From Sphingobacteriaceae bacterium (GTDB taxonomy: Bacteria > Bacteroidota > Bacteroidia > Sphingobacteriales > Sphingobacteriaceae): a stretch of DNA of 64,000 nucleotides. The notes below the pieces were generated by a model, which was not told the DNA's origin, did no database searches, and was given only the letters and a program-made list of their open reading frames with translations. Location of the stretch: assembly GCA_947463785.1 (NCBI GenBank), contig CANHRG010000001.1, forward strand, positions 1-64,000, given 5' to 3'. Position numbers and translations under genes: made by a program. Positions 10,354 through 33,069 of this stretch are shown in pieces (the stretch's first letter is position 1; each line of letters starts with the position of its first letter).

Positions 10354-11637
10354 ATGAAGAAATTATTCCTATCCCTATCGGGGATGTTTTTGTTGCTGAA
10401 CGTTTTCGGCCAAAATGTAAATCAAATTAAAGAAAAAGAAGTGGCTCGAATCATCGCTAAACTGGCTTCAGATGAAATGCAGGGTCGTGCTACATTTTCA
10501 CCGGGTATTGAAAAAGCGGCTCAATTCATCGAGTCGGAATTTAAAAAAATTGGCTTACAACCGCTACCAAATGAAAAGGGATTTCGCCAGTCGTTCAGTA
10601 TTAAACGATTCAAACCCGGAAGCATTCAAGTAAATTTTAATGGCCAAGTTATTAGCTCAGAAAATGTACTAGCTTCTACCGACCAAGAAATGTTGAGTTG
10701 GACGGAAGCCAGTGGCATTGAACAGATTCAGTTAGGCTCAGGTGTTAATTTCTTAAACCGTTATCGGGAGATTTTACGTACCAATAAATCGGCTCTTGTT
10801 TGGGTTAATCCGCAATATGCCGATGCATTCAAACGCCTGCGTGAATCTTCGTTGCGGGTACGCCCGGTGGTAAAAGCCAGAACAAGCTCGGTTGTATTCA
10901 TATTGGCCGAACAGCCTGCCAATACCTACAGCATCAACATCAAAAACACCTTGGAAGATAGCCAATTGTTTAATGTAGCGGGTGTGATTCCTGGCAAGTC
11001 GAAAACGCAGGAACTGGTAGTTTTTTCCGGACACTACGATCATTTGGGTATTGTTAAACCCACAGAAGGTGACTCCATTGCGAACGGCGCCGATGACGAT
11101 GCTTCGGGCACTACGGCTGTAATTAGCTTGGCAAAATATTTCAAAAAACTGAATAACAATGAACGCACTTTGATTTTCGTGGCCTTTACTGCCGAAGAAA
11201 TTGGCGGCTTTGGTTCTAAATATTTTTCAGAGCAATTAAATCCAGACCAGGTAGTAGCCATGTTCAATATTGAAATGATTGGCAAGGAGTCTAAGTTCGG
11301 AAAGAACAATGCCTTTGTTACGGGTTACGAGCGTTCTGATTTTGGAGAGATTTTGCAGAAGAATTTGGAAGGCACTGATTTCAAATTTTATCCAGATCCA
11401 TATCCACAGCAAAACTTATTTTACCGTAGCGACAATGCCACACTGGCGGCTTTGGGCGTTCCGGCACACACCATTTCTACCGACCAAATTGACACCGATA
11501 AATTATACCACACCGTTAACGATGAGGTAGAGAGTTTAGATGTAAAAAATATTATGGCTACCATTAAAGCCATTGCTTTGAGCTCGAGAAGTATTGTGGG
11601 TGGAAAAGATGCCCCTAAACGGATACCAAAATTATAA
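10354..11637 (+). CDS. M28 family zinc metallopeptidase, secreted
   Basis: A 427-residue aminopeptidase-like enzyme with a signal peptide ending in VFGQ. Di-zinc ligands are seen in order: SGHYDHLG, GADDDASG, AEEIGGFGS and the late STDQID...HTVNDE region. An N-terminal segment of about 200 residues precedes the catalytic core and may hold an inserted PA-like domain. It probably acts in the periplasm. It is translationally linked to the fucose synthase gene, though no functional link is obvious. Its 3' end overlaps the convergent GNAT gene by 6 nt. Confidence 0.9.
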   Translation: MKKLFLSLSGMFLLLNVFGQNVNQIKEKEVARIIAKLASDEMQGRATFSPGIEKAAQFIESEFKKIGLQPLPNEKGFRQSFSIKRFKPGSIQVNFNGQVISSENVLASTDQEMLSWTEASGIEQIQLGSGVNFLNRYREILRTNKSALVWVNPQYADAFKRLRESSLRVRPVVKARTSSVVFILAEQPANTYSINIKNTLEDSQLFNVAGVIPGKSKTQELVVFSGHYDHLGIVKPTEGDSIANGADDDASGTTAVISLAKYFKKLNNNERTLIFVAFTAEEIGGFGSKYFSEQLNPDQVVAMFNIEMIGKESKFGKNNAFVTGYERSDFGEILQKNLEGTDFKFYPDPYPQQNLFYRSDNATLAALGVPAHTISTDQIDTDKLYHTVNDEVESLDVKNIMATIKAIALSSRSIVGGKDAPKRIPKL

Positions 11638-12126
11638 GTTTTTGCGCATCACATAATCGTTCAATACGAAAGTGTGATAAGGAATATCTAGGGTTTGGTG
11701 AATATCAAACCCTATTTTTTTGTAAAAATACTGAGCTTTGTTGCCACGATTTACATTTAGTTCCAAGATTTTTCCGCCCGCAGTTTTAGCTAATCTACTC
11801 ACTTCGTCTACCATAGCTTTACCTGTTCCTTTACCTTGCTCGGAAGGTAAAACATAAAGTTTGTGCAACTTAAACACCTGTTCGGCAGTATTGGTCAGGC
11901 TAAATCCGGCAAAGCCCACAGGAACTTCATCTCGTATAGCCAGTAGAAAAGTAACGCCTTCGGCCATTTGCTGATCTAAAGAACTTATTGAGTACATTTC
12001 TTCGAGCATGAAACTGATCTGCTCCTCCGAAATGAAATCCCGGTAGGTAGGCCACCAGATCTCATCCGCCAAGCGACTAATTATTGGAATAGCTTGGGCT
12101 GTAGCTTGGCGAATGCGTAAACTCAT
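11632..12126 (-). CDS. GNAT family N-acetyltransferase
   Basis: A 164-residue GNAT protein with the acetyl-CoA pyrophosphate loop LPSEQGKGTGKAMVDE and beta-5 LELNVNRGN, followed by a YKKIGF motif. The substrate is unknown. It is the last gene of the riboswitch-controlled operon: its ATG overlaps the TPK-like stop (ATGA). Whether it acts on a thiamine-related compound is purely a context-based guess. Confidence 0.88.
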   Translation of the reverse strand: MSLRIRQATAQAIPIISRLADEIWWPTYRDFISEEQISFMLEEMYSISSLDQQMAEGVTFLLAIRDEVPVGFAGFSLTNTAEQVFKLHKLYVLPSEQGKGTGKAMVDEVSRLAKTAGGKILELNVNRGNKAQYFYKKIGFDIHQTLDIPYHTFVLNDYVMRKNL

Positions 12127-12689
12127 AGTTCTTCGGCAATAAAAATAAAGGGCTGATGAAAAGCCAAGCTATAAAACCCGTCTTTTTCGGTTTCGAACCG
12201 ATATGGCTTCAACTGACGTAACCCCTGCACTTCCAGGTGATTAATATCGTGCATCATTTCCACTTTTTCGCCCGCAACCACCCATTTGCTAAAACCCGTT
12301 TTAACTGGAAATATTTTTTTACCCGGATTGTAGATAACCAGATTGATCAGATCCACAAACAAGGCATAGTCTTTCAATAAAAATTTAGAATCAATGATGT
12401 TTACGGCCGGATAAGCCTCTGCTACCAAAAACTTCAGGGCATCTTCCAATACATCAGCTTCAAAAGGAATCAAACGCGTGTGTTCCTGCGCATAAAACTG
12501 CCCATTATTGGTGATTATCCCATCTACTTTGATGCCCATGCTATCTGCTTGCTCATAAACGCTTTCTGTTACAATCACCGTGGGACTCCATTCGAGCAAT
12601 TGTCCAAGGTATTCTGAATCAAAGCCATCCAGGTTCATGATGAGGAGCGCTGGCTCCTGTTTTTCCCTGACAATGTGGTGCGACGACAT
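12123..12689 (-). CDS. Thiamine pyrophosphokinase-like protein, apparently degenerate
   Basis: The N-terminus MSSHHIVREKQEPALLI and the segment LGQLLEWSPTVIV resemble sphingobacterial thiamine pyrophosphokinases, which make TPP from thiamine and ATP. The start at 12689 (188 aa) gives this family N-terminus; the track ORF extends into the phosphatase gene. Where active enzymes have a GDFDS-type metal site after the GIKVD strand, this one reads GIITNNGQF, and the second acidic motif is FEADVLEDAL. Catalysis is therefore doubtful. It lies 1 nt after the phosphatase and overlaps the GNAT gene, in a TPP-controlled operon. Confidence 0.7.
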   Translation of the reverse strand: MSSHHIVREKQEPALLIMNLDGFDSEYLGQLLEWSPTVIVTESVYEQADSMGIKVDGIITNNGQFYAQEHTRLIPFEADVLEDALKFLVAEAYPAVNIIDSKFLLKDYALFVDLINLVIYNPGKKIFPVKTGFSKWVVAGEKVEMMHDINHLEVQGLRQLKPYRFETEKDGFYSLAFHQPFIFIAEEL

Positions 12690-12690
12690 C

Positions 12691-14340
12691 TTATTTGAGC
12701 GCCTCGGTAATGGGTGTGCCAACTGCCCCATTAGGCATTTGGATATGCAATAGCGTAGAAATTGTTGGCGCAATATCAGTCATGTAGATTGAGCGGTTGG
12801 TTTTGCCCTTCTTTATACCCCAGCCCATAAAGAGTAAGGGGATATGCGAATCGTAAGGGTTCCAGCTACCGTGTGTGGTTCCGGTTACATCACTACTGTG
12901 GTACCATCCTGGATTCAGGACCACAAAAATAGCACCACTACGATCTGGATGATAGCTATTGATCAATCGGGTTTTAATGATAGCAGGTATAGATTCCTGT
13001 TCAGGATTTTTCATATCAACTACATACTCCACCCCTTGCTGACGTTTCAAAAATTCTACACAGCTTTTTCTTATAGCTGCCTCGTCTAAGCCTACACTTT
13101 TAATGAGATTAGTATTCAAGGAAACCTGATAATTGTCTAAACTCAGCGTTAGGTTTTGATGACCGAAATCTTTTTCTAATTGGGCAGATAAGCGTTTGCT
13201 AATCTCTTTCTCAGGCCAGATGCCAGCCGGAATTTTGCGGTCTTTTAAGAATTGTGCTACCTCAGCGCCACCGTGATCTGCGGTTAGAAAAAGCGTGTAA
13301 TTCCCTTTGCCAACACGATTGTCTAAGAATGTAAAAAAGGAAGCCAGGTCTTTGTCCAAACGCAAAAACGTATCCTCAACCTCTATCGATTTAGGTCCGA
13401 AGTCATGACCCACATAATCTGTTGAAGAGCAAGAAACCGCCAAAAAATCGGTCTCGCTATCTATCCCCATTTCTTCATTACTGATGATTGCCTTCGCCAA
13501 ATCTAAGGTCAGCGTATTTCCAAAAGGGGTGGTACGAATAACGCCTAAATCTTTACTGAAAAGCTGAGAGGTTTTAATCGGAAAAATTGGGGCTTCAGTG
13601 CCTTTAATCTTACGCTCATACGAATTACTATCGGGCAAGCTTGCAGTGTACGTTTCAATTGGATATAGTGTATTCCAATCCTGACTCAAATACTTCTCAG
13701 GTAGTTTTTGTGCATTGAAGTTTTTTAACCATTGAGGCAAATCCTTCATGTAAAAAGTAGAACTAATCCAATTGCCGCTTACATCATCAAACCAATACGC
13801 TGCATCGGCCATGTGACCTGCTGGCAGAATAGCACCTCGATCTTTTAAAGCAATCCCAATGACTTTTGACCTTGAGTTGGTGGCAATTTTTAGCTCATCA
13901 GTTACAGTGGTGGTTAATAAATTCCGAGGTGACATTTTACCAGCTTTAACTGATCCTCCAATAGATTGTACTGAACTATCTGCCACACAATACATCGACT
14001 TACCAGTAGATTGGATGATAAAGTCATTCTCTGTAATACCATGAATGGCCGGTATTGAACCTGTATACACCGTTGTATGTCCGGGAGCTGTTACTGTTGC
14101 TGCATAGGGTATTTGCGTATTATCGCATGAAAAACCCTCGTTTAACAACCTTTTAAATCCAGCCTCACCATAACGGTTGTAATATCTAAATAAATAGTCC
14201 CAACGCATTTGATCAACCACTAAACCTACTACCAGTTTTGGTCTCTGTAGGCTAAGGGTAGTTGTTGGTGTAATTTTTTGTTGTGCATGAGTACTGCCAA
14301 TACACCAAACTAAAACCAAAGACCAAAAAGCTTTTTTCAT
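12691..14340 (-). CDS. PafA-like alkaline phosphatase (AP superfamily)
   Basis: A 549-residue periplasmic phosphomonoesterase-type protein with signal peptide MKKAFWSLVLVWCIGSTHA. Metal and catalytic motifs: VVDQMRWDY, nucleophile Thr in VTAPGHTTVYTG, STDYVGHDFGP, LTADHGG and a late THGSWNP. KDRG (about 165) matches the Lys/Arg pair that marks PafA-type monoesterases over diesterases. The start is moved 8 codons in from the track to the signal peptide Met. It is encoded between a TPP-regulated TonB receptor and a TPK-like gene, so thiamine phosphates are a plausible substrate; that is inference. Confidence 0.88.
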   Translation of the reverse strand: MKKAFWSLVLVWCIGSTHAQQKITPTTTLSLQRPKLVVGLVVDQMRWDYLFRYYNRYGEAGFKRLLNEGFSCDNTQIPYAATVTAPGHTTVYTGSIPAIHGITENDFIIQSTGKSMYCVADSSVQSIGGSVKAGKMSPRNLLTTTVTDELKIATNSRSKVIGIALKDRGAILPAGHMADAAYWFDDVSGNWISSTFYMKDLPQWLKNFNAQKLPEKYLSQDWNTLYPIETYTASLPDSNSYERKIKGTEAPIFPIKTSQLFSKDLGVIRTTPFGNTLTLDLAKAIISNEEMGIDSETDFLAVSCSSTDYVGHDFGPKSIEVEDTFLRLDKDLASFFTFLDNRVGKGNYTLFLTADHGGAEVAQFLKDRKIPAGIWPEKEISKRLSAQLEKDFGHQNLTLSLDNYQVSLNTNLIKSVGLDEAAIRKSCVEFLKRQQGVEYVVDMKNPEQESIPAIIKTRLINSYHPDRSGAIFVVLNPGWYHSSDVTGTTHGSWNPYDSHIPLLFMGWGIKKGKTNRSIYMTDIAPTISTLLHIQMPNGAVGTPITEALK

Positions 14341-14386
14341 TGACAAAGGGTTAATAATCTGCAAATATCGATATCCTGCCCTGTAT

Positions 14387-16753
14387 TTAAAACTTCATAT
14401 TCAAAGAAAACAAAAAGTTTCTAGTGGCCTGAGGGAAAAAGGCATTACTTCTGGATAACTCTCCACCACTTATGGCACTAAAAGTAAAGCCATTAGTTTC
14501 GTAATATTCGTTGAATAGGTTGTTGATTAACAAACTCATGCCGATGTTTTTGATCGCTTTTGTTTTTAGTTGATAAGATAACCGCAAATCGTTCACCAAA
14601 AACGCATCTAACTGGGCTTTGGCATTGGCTGTATTGTCTAAAAACTGCCTTCCCACGTATTTGCTCAGTAAGGCTATCTCGGCACGCTCAAAGGGCTTAA
14701 AACCAAGCTCACTTCCGGCAACTACAGCAGGTGAAAAAGCAATATTGGTATTGCGATACGTAGTAGCTACTTGGGTATTGTTATCGAAATTATCAACGAA
14801 ATTGGTGTAATCCTTGATCTTATTTCGACTAATTGCCAAGTTAGCTGCCCAAGACCAACGTGTATTGATCTGCCATTTTCCATCAATTTCTAAACCCAAT
14901 CGGTAGCTATCCGTCACGTTCTGACGGGTATAAGCCCCCACATCGTTAATCTGGCCAGTTAGTATCAACTGATTCTGATACTGCATGTAATAGGCATTGG
15001 CTGTCCAGTCAAAACGATTTCTTTTTACACGGTAACCCAATTCCCAGTCAATCAGCCTTTCAGACTGAGGCCGGCTGCTAGGGCTGGAATTGGTCAGATC
15101 ATCCCGGTTTGGCTCTTTATTCGCTACAGCTATAGACGCGTATAATTGGTCATAATCGTTTAACTGGTAGGTCACCCCCGCTTTCGGATTAAAGAAATTG
15201 AACAAGACTGCTTGTTGTAAATTTTGCAAGTTGGTATCAAAACCTACAAATTCATGGCTTACACGACGGTATTGCAAATCGGCATAGTACGACCATAAAC
15301 CCCGCTGATAAGAAAGTTTGGCATAGCTGTTAAAGTCGGTTTTGAAACCATTATTATCGTAATAACGCTCACGTATTTTGCTTTGAGAAGCATATTTCGC
15401 CCAAATCACTTCTCCAAAGTGGTCACCATTATACTCGTTATAAGCCCCGCCAAGTGTTAGTTCTAAGCCATCTTTAGGCTGATAGGTCAAGTTGTAGGTC
15501 ATACCATAAAAATCATTATCCAACCAACGACGGCGAATCAAATCGGTTTGATTGATGGTAGTAGCACCTAACACAATAGGCGAGAAGCCATATTTTAAAA
15601 AATCCTGATCTTCCTTGTATTCTTCGTAATAACCACGTCCATACGTATAATGCAATGCTCCGTTTATAGATAATTTAGATGAAAACCGATGTGCATATAA
15701 CATTTGATAATGATCCTGCGTGTAATTATCGGTTTGGTCTTCGTAAGTAAATCCGTTAAAGGTTCGGTTAGTGGTTAACAATTCCTCGGGTACACCATTC
15801 CAGGCTTGGTAGGTCTTTTCAGTTCCCGAAAATACATTGGCTCGAATAAGTGTGTTTTTACCGTACCATGCACCCGTAAGGAAATAAGATTTCAATCGTG
15901 AAGAAGCTCGATCTATATAACCATCTGAGCTAATTTTTGATAATCGACCATCAAATGTAAATTGATTATTAATTAATCCAGAACCAAAATTAATCGTGTT
16001 TTTAGACGTATTGAATGAACCAAAGGTAGTATTCAGTTCGGCATACGCTGTATCATGGCGGGTAGTAGTTTGCAAATTAATACTGGCGCCAAAAGCCCCC
16101 GCACCATTGGTAGACGTACCTACTCCTCTTTGTACCTGGATATTATCTGCCGAAGAAACAAAATCTGGTAAATTAACAAAGAAGGTACCTTGACTTTCCG
16201 GATCGTTGAAGGGAATACCATTCAAAGTAACGTTAATGCGGGTAGCATCACTACCACGGATACGGATACCGGTATAGCCAATACCTGCCCCAGCATCTGA
16301 CGATACAACCACGCCCGGTGTCTGGTTGAGTACAAAAGGCAAGTCTTGTCCAACATTATTCTTTTGGATCTCCGCCTTCGACAAGTTTCTGTAAGTAGTT
16401 GCCGTTTGTTCAGATGCCCGGGTAGATTTAACTACGACCTCATCTCCAAAAAGTGCCGCTACTTTCAAATTTACCTCGATTTTTAAATCAGCACTTACAC
16501 TCAGGTTTTGACTAAACGTTTCGTAACCCACAAAACTTACTTTCAGTTTATAATTACCTGCGGGTAAGTTTCTGAAACTAAAAATCCCTTCACTGTTGGT
16601 TTGAGCAGATTGCCCATTACTTAAAAGCACGGTGGCTCCACTTAAAACCTGCTGGTTTCGCATATCCTGTACTTTACCGCCAATACTAAGCTGTGCCCAA
16701 GCAACAACGGGCAATACCATCGCCATAAAAGCGATACAAATTAATTTTTTCAT
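14387..16753 (-). CDS. TonB-dependent outer membrane receptor, TPP-regulated (thiamine uptake candidate)
   Basis: A 788-residue outer membrane receptor with signal peptide (ending AWAQ), a CarboxypepD_reg-like beta-sandwich (about 22-105), a plug domain (about 115-225, with GIRIRGSDATRINVTLNG) and a 22-strand-type barrel ending in an aromatic residue (LNMKF). Its mRNA leader is a TPP riboswitch, so expression should rise when thiamine pyrophosphate is scarce. The likely cargo is thiamine or a phosphorylated thiamine. No SusD partner lies beside it. It heads an operon with phosphatase, TPK-like and GNAT genes. The N-terminal Met is an ATG. Confidence 0.92.
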   Translation of the reverse strand: MKKLICIAFMAMVLPVVAWAQLSIGGKVQDMRNQQVLSGATVLLSNGQSAQTNSEGIFSFRNLPAGNYKLKVSFVGYETFSQNLSVSADLKIEVNLKVAALFGDEVVVKSTRASEQTATTYRNLSKAEIQKNNVGQDLPFVLNQTPGVVVSSDAGAGIGYTGIRIRGSDATRINVTLNGIPFNDPESQGTFFVNLPDFVSSADNIQVQRGVGTSTNGAGAFGASINLQTTTRHDTAYAELNTTFGSFNTSKNTINFGSGLINNQFTFDGRLSKISSDGYIDRASSRLKSYFLTGAWYGKNTLIRANVFSGTEKTYQAWNGVPEELLTTNRTFNGFTYEDQTDNYTQDHYQMLYAHRFSSKLSINGALHYTYGRGYYEEYKEDQDFLKYGFSPIVLGATTINQTDLIRRRWLDNDFYGMTYNLTYQPKDGLELTLGGAYNEYNGDHFGEVIWAKYASQSKIRERYYDNNGFKTDFNSYAKLSYQRGLWSYYADLQYRRVSHEFVGFDTNLQNLQQAVLFNFFNPKAGVTYQLNDYDQLYASIAVANKEPNRDDLTNSSPSSRPQSERLIDWELGYRVKRNRFDWTANAYYMQYQNQLILTGQINDVGAYTRQNVTDSYRLGLEIDGKWQINTRWSWAANLAISRNKIKDYTNFVDNFDNNTQVATTYRNTNIAFSPAVVAGSELGFKPFERAEIALLSKYVGRQFLDNTANAKAQLDAFLVNDLRLSYQLKTKAIKNIGMSLLINNLFNEYYETNGFTFSAISGGELSRSNAFFPQATRNFLFSLNMKF

Positions 16754-16817
16754 TTTTTTGTATAAAATAAGTTAACAATGACTGCCTAAGGGGTTATAGC
16801 AGCATAAATAACTTTTA

Positions 16818-16975
16818 CCTCTCCCTACGCCGGCATTATCCGGATCAGGTGCTCGAATCAAGTTTAAATTCAAAAGTCAAAAACGCTTAAGCCCTTTTAA
16901 CTTTTTATTTTTACTTTATCGATGGGTATAATCTCAGCCCGTTTTTGTGTTTGCAACAAACAAGGCACCCCTATT
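16818..16975 (-). promoter_or_regulatory. TPP riboswitch (THI element)
   Basis: On the minus strand the conserved blocks appear in order: AGGGGTGCC, a P3 hairpin TGTTTG-TTG-CAAACA, GGGCTGAGATTATACCC (pyrimidine-binding), then ACCTGATCCGGATAATGCCGGCGTAGGGA (pyrophosphate-binding). All invariant blocks are intact. About 70 nt are inserted between the two halves and can fold on themselves. No terminator hairpin with a U-tract is visible before the receptor ATG at 16753. ACCCCT at 16789-16794 (read on the minus strand) could pair with the aptamer's AGGGGT, offering a switch without termination. Confidence 0.97.
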
Positions 16976-16983
16976 TCAAAGCA

Positions 16984-16991
16984 CAAAATTA
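16984..16991 (-). promoter_or_regulatory. Promoter box of the riboswitch operon
   Basis: TAATTTTG on the minus strand matches TAnnTTTG and ends about 12 nt before the aptamer's first conserved bases, so transcription would begin just before the riboswitch. No good -33 TTTG is present at the usual distance. Confidence 0.55.
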
Positions 16992-31930: not shown

Positions 31931-31935
31931 GTGTT

Positions 31936-31943
31936 TATCTTTG
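31936..31943 (+). promoter_or_regulatory. Promoter box of pnuC (leaderless)
   Basis: TATCTTTG matches TAnnTTTG and lies just after the M13 terminator, 5 nt before the pnuC ATG at 31949. Confidence 0.7.
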
Positions 31944-31948
31944 GCCCG

Positions 31949-32551
31949 ATGGAAGTACTAAACTCATTCACCAACTGGCTGGCCCAGCAGAGTCTTCTAG
32001 AGTCTGCCGGTGTAGTTAGCGGTATTTTATGTGTGTGGTTGGCTGCCAAAAATAACATCTGGAATTGGCCCATAGCTATTATCAGTGTGGCCATTTACAT
32101 CGTCATTTTTTTAGAAGCCAAACTGTATGCCGATACGGGTTTGCAAGTCTATTTTTTAGGTATGAATATTTACGGCTGGTATTTCTGGAGTCGTAAAGCG
32201 AAAGATGCTCCTAGGGTGCCGGTAAAAAGAATCAGTAAAACAGAATTGTTGATTTCACTGGCCTGCATTGCCTTATTTACAGCCTTGCTTGGCTTCTTTC
32301 TGTTTAAACAAACCGATGCCGCTTTCCCTTTCATCGATAGCTTTTGTACGGCCTGCAGTTTAGTAGCTCAGGTGTTTTTGGCCCGCAAAGTTTTAGAAAA
32401 TTGGTTGATCTGGATTTTTGTAGACATCATTTATGTGGGTGTTTACCTGGCTAAAGACTTACATCTTACAGCCGGCATGTATGCCTTGTACATTTACATT
32501 GCCCTATCGGGATACCTGGCCTGGAGAGCCGAATTGAAAACGCAATCATGA
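31949..32551 (+). CDS. pnuC: PnuC-type nicotinamide riboside transporter
   Basis: A 200-residue inner membrane facilitator with about seven predicted spans and the family segment AAKNNIWNWPIAIISV plus YFLGMNIYGWYFW. It most likely imports nicotinamide riboside, because a riboside kinase gene overlaps its 3' end by 4 nt (ATGA). PnuT, the thiamine homologue, is an alternative, but no TPP riboswitch precedes it here. The track start is a GTG that overlaps the terminator/promoter; the ATG at 31949 is preferred. Confidence 0.88.
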   Translation: MEVLNSFTNWLAQQSLLESAGVVSGILCVWLAAKNNIWNWPIAIISVAIYIVIFLEAKLYADTGLQVYFLGMNIYGWYFWSRKAKDAPRVPVKRISKTELLISLACIALFTALLGFFLFKQTDAAFPFIDSFCTACSLVAQVFLARKVLENWLIWIFVDIIYVGVYLAKDLHLTAGMYALYIYIALSGYLAWRAELKTQS

Positions 32552-33069
32552 ACATCCAAAAGATCGCAATTGTAGGGCCCGAATCTACCGGGAAATCGAC
32601 CATATCGCCGATGCTGGCCGAGCATTACGATACAGTTTGGGTGCCCGAATATGCCCGCGAATATTGTGAAAAATTGACTGCTCCCTGCACCTGGGAGGAC
32701 GAGATCAACATGTTTCGCGGACAGCTTGAATTGGAAAAAAAGTTGCTGCCCAAGGCCAACAAAATCTTGATTTGCGATACCACGTTTATTACCGTTAAAA
32801 TTTGGAGCGATCAGATGTTCGGAAAAGCACCGCAAGAAGTTTTGGATGAGTTACCCAAACATACCTACGATTTCTACCTGCTCATGAATATCGACCTGCC
32901 CTGGGAAAATGATCCACTCCGTGATTTCCCGCACCTGCGTGAACATTTTATGGAAGTTTGGCATCAAGAACTTCAAGCTTTGGGCGCCAAATACGAAGTT
33001 ATTTCGGGTACAAACGCCCAGCGATTCCGCAATGCGGTAAAAGCCATCGACCATTTCCTCAAAAGCTAA
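32548..33069 (+). CDS. NadR-like ribosylnicotinamide kinase (P-loop)
   Basis: A 173-residue P-loop kinase with Walker A GPESTGKST, the WVPEYAREYCE motif and ICDTTFIT, all typical of the C-terminal kinase domain of NadR. The NMN adenylyltransferase and repressor domains of enterobacterial NadR are missing. It should phosphorylate nicotinamide riboside entering via PnuC, trapping it as NMN for NAD synthesis. Translational coupling to pnuC supports this. Confidence 0.88.
   Translation: MNIQKIAIVGPESTGKSTISPMLAEHYDTVWVPEYAREYCEKLTAPCTWEDEINMFRGQLELEKKLLPKANKILICDTTFITVKIWSDQMFGKAPQEVLDELPKHTYDFYLLMNIDLPWENDPLRDFPHLREHFMEVWHQELQALGAKYEVISGTNAQRFRNAVKAIDHFLKS

Follow-up and report, generated by a model that had tools for sequence, protein, structure and literature searches.

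The window analysed in this study, a 64,000-nucleotide stretch of a Sphingobacteriaceae genome, contains a TPP riboswitch aptamer and four genes that share the minus strand. Directly behind the aptamer, the arrangement by which OMthi-type receptors are recognized, lies the gene for an OMthi-like TonB-dependent receptor (14387..16753), which has a signal peptide-like N-terminus, a CarboxypepD_reg-like domain and Pfam matches to TonB_dep_Rec_b-barrel and Plug; homologous receptors lie behind TPP switches throughout Sphingobacteriaceae. Next come the genes for a 549-aa PafA phosphatase, also with a signal peptide-like N-terminus (12691..14340; ATG at 14340, stop at 12691), a 188-aa TPK-like protein without a TPK active site (pseudo-TPK; 12123..12689; ATG at 12689, stop at 12123) and a GNAT-family acetyltransferase (11632..12126; Acetyltransf_1, E = 4e-15). 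A sequence-only reading of this DNA had described the four as closely spaced and co-directional, and the reading frames agree: receptor and PafA are 46 nt apart, PafA and the TPK-like gene 1 nt, and the TPK-like and GNAT genes share a 4-nt ATGA overlap. A terminator in the gap between receptor and phosphatase, which would have spoken against that reading, was looked for on the minus strand, and no terminator-like site was found. The operon also holds no inner-membrane thiamine transporter, as had been stated; PnuT is absent from it and, in some relatives, is encoded in the same operon, where it accounts for the inner-membrane step. The order receptor-PafA-TPK-like-GNAT is kept in all five genus members where the locus was found (5/5), the genomes of which measure only 1.5-1.8 Mb. 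In relatives, the GNAT gene often adjoins the pseudo-TPK gene, and Pedobacter has the two genes as well, at sites around which no TPP switch was found.

The aptamer core occupies about 16822..16971 on the minus strand. Its RF00059 match in Rfam, at 16805-16869(-), scores 40.4 bits (E = 1e-6) and falls below the gathering score of 54.3 because a long insert of approximately 75 nt, which forms a hairpin, lies between P2 and P4. The conserved core that had been recognized ahead of the receptor is present, with all its motifs (AGGGGTGCC ... CTGAGATTATACCC ... CACCTGATCCGGATAATGCCGGCGTAGGGA); on inspection, distal P1 pairing is weak. This core was seen in 52 extracted leaders, and dozens of relatives combine it with an insert of varying length and sequence. 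Since most relatives carry the core with such variable inserts, default Rfam scans undercount these switches. The P2-P4 insert is hypervariable and often contains short repeats and inverted repeats (leaders L038-L057 and L140-L204). To judge from the leader, the operon is expected to be controlled by TPP.

Just 3' of the aptamer, a hairpin with two stems and a C-rich loop (16756..16821, minus strand) is the probable expression platform. In the window, its outer stem is AAGUUA/UAACUU and its inner stem CUGC/GCAG, and the loop sequence ACCCCU has complements both in P2 (AGGGGU) and in P4 (AGGG). Hairpins with a CCC or CCCC loop occur at this position in 42 of the 46 TPP leaders that have a long reading frame downstream, compared with 39 of 920 dinucleotide shuffles, the leaders being related by kinship and thus not independent. 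Between genera the stems covary (CUGCAUA/UAUGCAG, CUGGAUAG/CUGUCCAG, AUAUGCG/CGUAUAU) and the loop stays constant. No poly-U terminator follows the leader hairpin, and the C-rich hairpin is absent both from the thiC leaders for which folds were obtained and from orphan leaders, which carry terminator-like hairpins instead. From these pairings we infer an anti-aptamer switch, in which the loop would pair with the P2 or the P4 strand. The mechanism of TPP switches in Bacteroidota has been termed uncertain (PMC5613172), and the conserved hairpin bears on this question. An orphan aptamer with a terminator-like hairpin lies at L066:15106-15247 (G000:C2:327113-327206, minus strand), and others are found in L122 and L123. 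Three genomes in the genus have the orphan, with no thiamine gene downstream, and in the window genome ars genes are convergent to it; it is possibly the remnant of a lost thiC operon.

The TPK-like protein had no Pfam match at a threshold as loose as E = 10, and a profile search of PDB sequences with its alignment gave chance-level matches only, so that a fold search was needed. Its AF2 model (pLDDT 92.5) has as best Foldseek match the TPK of B. thetaiotaomicron (2omk; E = 2e-12, TM 0.77), with which it shares the fold but not the GDxDS, DQxxTD and GxRxDH segments. These catalytic motifs are absent from 97 of 97 unique homologues, a set that leaves out the relatives in G046 and G052 with full TPK motifs, and the DH loop (the GxRxDH segment) is deleted in all of them; QEPAL and LLEWSP are nearly invariant across the same 97 sequences. 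G046 and G052, which belong to two other families, share the MSSHH...QEPAL start and match PF04263. The earlier TPK-like label thus survives for the fold, whereas activity as a TPK is ruled out by the loss of the catalytic motifs in 97/97. The gene occurs in 25 of 37 family genomes, the window genome included, and in three genomes of other families (28/60 in all). Because a protein conserved across the family keeps the fold without the active site, it is best read, from sequence and model, as a pseudoenzyme and not a decaying gene, and its role is probably to bind either a partner protein or a B1 compound. In G013, a different 201-aa protein (L116:5908-6513) occupies the TPK-like slot, in the order TPP-receptor-PafA-x-GNAT.

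The phosphatase exceeds the cut-off of NCBIfam alk_phos_PafA (NF042991; 783 bits, cut-off 650) and matches Pfam Phosphodiest. It aligns over its full length with 5tj3, the PafA of Elizabethkingia, and retains the motifs VVDQM, TVTAPGHT, ND, LKDR, STDYVGH, ADHG and TTHG, which we take to comprise the nucleophile Thr, the Asn, the Lys/Arg and the two-zinc ligands. The pairing of a PafA gene with a TPP riboswitch, new to the sequence-only reading, recurs in relatives: pafA lies inside TPP-OMR operons in 12 of 37 Sphingobacteriaceae genomes from 8 genera (G000, G001, G003, G004, G005, G007, G010, G013, G015, G018, G025 and G029). In three further genomes it adjoins the ThiE or TPK-like gene and the receptor is absent, and in about 15 family genomes it is located away from the thiamine cluster. 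Eighty named TPK-like loci were also surveyed, these being the closest matches and biased to Mucilaginibacter; among the 80 matches listed, TPP and receptor occur within one stretch in 26, and 21 of these have pafA. Together, the neighbourhoods suggest an ancestral order of TPP, receptor, PnuT, acyl-CoA-dehydrogenase-like, PafA, ThiE-like, TPK-like and GNAT, parts of which different genera lack; PnuT and ThiE identities in relatives rest on Pfam. The acyl-CoA-dehydrogenase-like gene is regularly found 3' of PnuT under TPP switches (L055, L043, L049, L056, L100 and L102). A literature search for TPP switches with Pedobacter and phosphatase found no paper in the collection covered.

Profile searches detected neither ThiC nor ThiE in the window genome, the assembly of which is 99.5% complete, and ThiL is present; the organism would therefore need external B1. 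It is probably a B1 auxotroph, and from its gene content it should make TPP from TMP via ThiL. Canonical TPK was found by profile searches in none of the 37 Sphingobacteriaceae genomes, including that of the window, and ThiL in 36 of them. Any free thiamine released by PafA would still need a kinase before ThiL. A Pnu-family transporter gene without a TPP switch (31931-32551) overlaps an AAA_28/NadR-like kinase gene (32548-33069) elsewhere in the window, the pair spanning 31931-33069. Homologues of this kinase are encoded near TPP-receptor loci in four genera (G009, G011, G017 and G030); it may be the thiamine kinase, and is equally a candidate nicotinamide riboside kinase. An APH-type thiamine kinase was also considered and set aside: each genus member has one APH match, too generic for assignment.

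We propose, with a probability of roughly 0.55, that the locus is an operon for B1 acquisition, repressed by TPP, whose PafA would free thiamine from its phosphates, as PHO3 does in yeast. At low TPP, the leader would permit expression; the TonB receptor would carry thiamine and its phosphates over the outer membrane, and periplasmic PafA would dephosphorylate TMP and TPP. The resulting thiamine would then cross the inner membrane through PnuT in some relatives and perhaps, in the window organism, through the Pnu-family protein encoded elsewhere. A putative kinase would convert thiamine to TMP and ThiL would convert TMP to TPP, which the TPK-like protein no longer makes. Within this scheme we infer the substrates of the receptor and of PafA, the inner-membrane route and the thiamine kinase step. 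The yeast precedent is a periplasmic acid phosphatase that is induced on thiamine depletion and frees thiamine from TPP (PMC4807840). A secreted phosphatase, thiamine-responsive control and the proposed release of thiamine from TPP before uptake are common to both, but PHO3 belongs to an unrelated enzyme family and has no riboswitch, and its action on B1 phosphates has been described in yeast, whereas that of PafA is predicted. With the Bacteroides OMthi-pnuT-tnr3 operon (PMC5613172), the locus shares the TPP riboswitch, the TonB receptor and a TPK-family protein, as well as PnuT in relatives; it differs in the addition of PafA and GNAT, in the absence of PnuT and in a TPK-family protein devoid of its active site.

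The salvage role first suggested for the phosphatase gains from this precedent, from the retained catalytic residues and from recurrence with the receptor, PnuT and ThiE in 8 genera, but the enzyme is an ordinary PafA. Family genomes that have PafA carry one copy each (two in G030), and in the tree operon and non-operon copies are intermixed in one mixed group with at least nine forced changes; a dedicated paralogue is therefore rejected. We read pafA as an old resident of the operon with repeated exits, gains also being possible. As the usual only copy of its genome, with no separate clade, PafA may instead serve general phosphate supply, having inherited its neighbourhood; TPP would then control it weakly, or an internal promoter would circumvent the switch. 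Enzymes of this family hydrolyse phosphomonoesters broadly, and the Flavobacterium enzyme, which like that of Elizabethkingia shares family, catalytic residues and full-length match with the window protein, is described as constitutive and tied to phosphate supply, not to thiamine, unlike the operon context here (PMC8812569). The breadth of the family and the constitutive expression described in flavobacteria count against B1 salvage, as do the lack of a TPK to use free thiamine and the TPK-like/GNAT pair of Pedobacter. However, many genera have pafA between the receptor and the ThiE or TPK-like gene, either overlapping its neighbours or a short distance from them, and streamlined genomes retain it; we consider a purely general phosphatase a possible but distinctly less probable account.

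Alternatively, the operon might supply TMP: PafA would trim TPP to TMP, which would be imported and completed to TPP by ThiL alone. Such a route would account for a family that has no TPK although ThiL is nearly universal in it, but we regard it as unlikely, as the substrates known for Pnu-family carriers are unphosphorylated and an unspecific phosphatase would go past TMP. PnuT itself carries thiamine (PMC5613172). That receptor and phosphatase serve another phosphorylated nutrient, the TPP switch only coupling its use to central metabolism, would fit a receptor whose substrate is predicted and a GNAT and pseudo-TPK without known role, but PnuT and ThiE recur alongside these genes in the operons, which makes it highly improbable.

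Returning to B1 acquisition with PafA-mediated release of thiamine, a more complete reading would combine dedicated, TPP-switched scavenging of B1 phosphates by PafA, a dead TPK with a new, non-catalytic role and a further kinase feeding ThiL; we put forward this combination tentatively, and doubt that all its parts will hold. A lead for this further kinase is the AAA_28/NadR-like protein that is paired with Pnu transporters. If true, PafA would be, to our knowledge, the first bacterial secreted phosphatase under a thiamine switch. In Sphingobacteriaceae, which are soil and freshwater bacteria, environmental B1 phosphates would then be tied to the survival of an auxotroph, and a gap in B1 salvage would be exposed across a whole family that has ThiL but no TPK.
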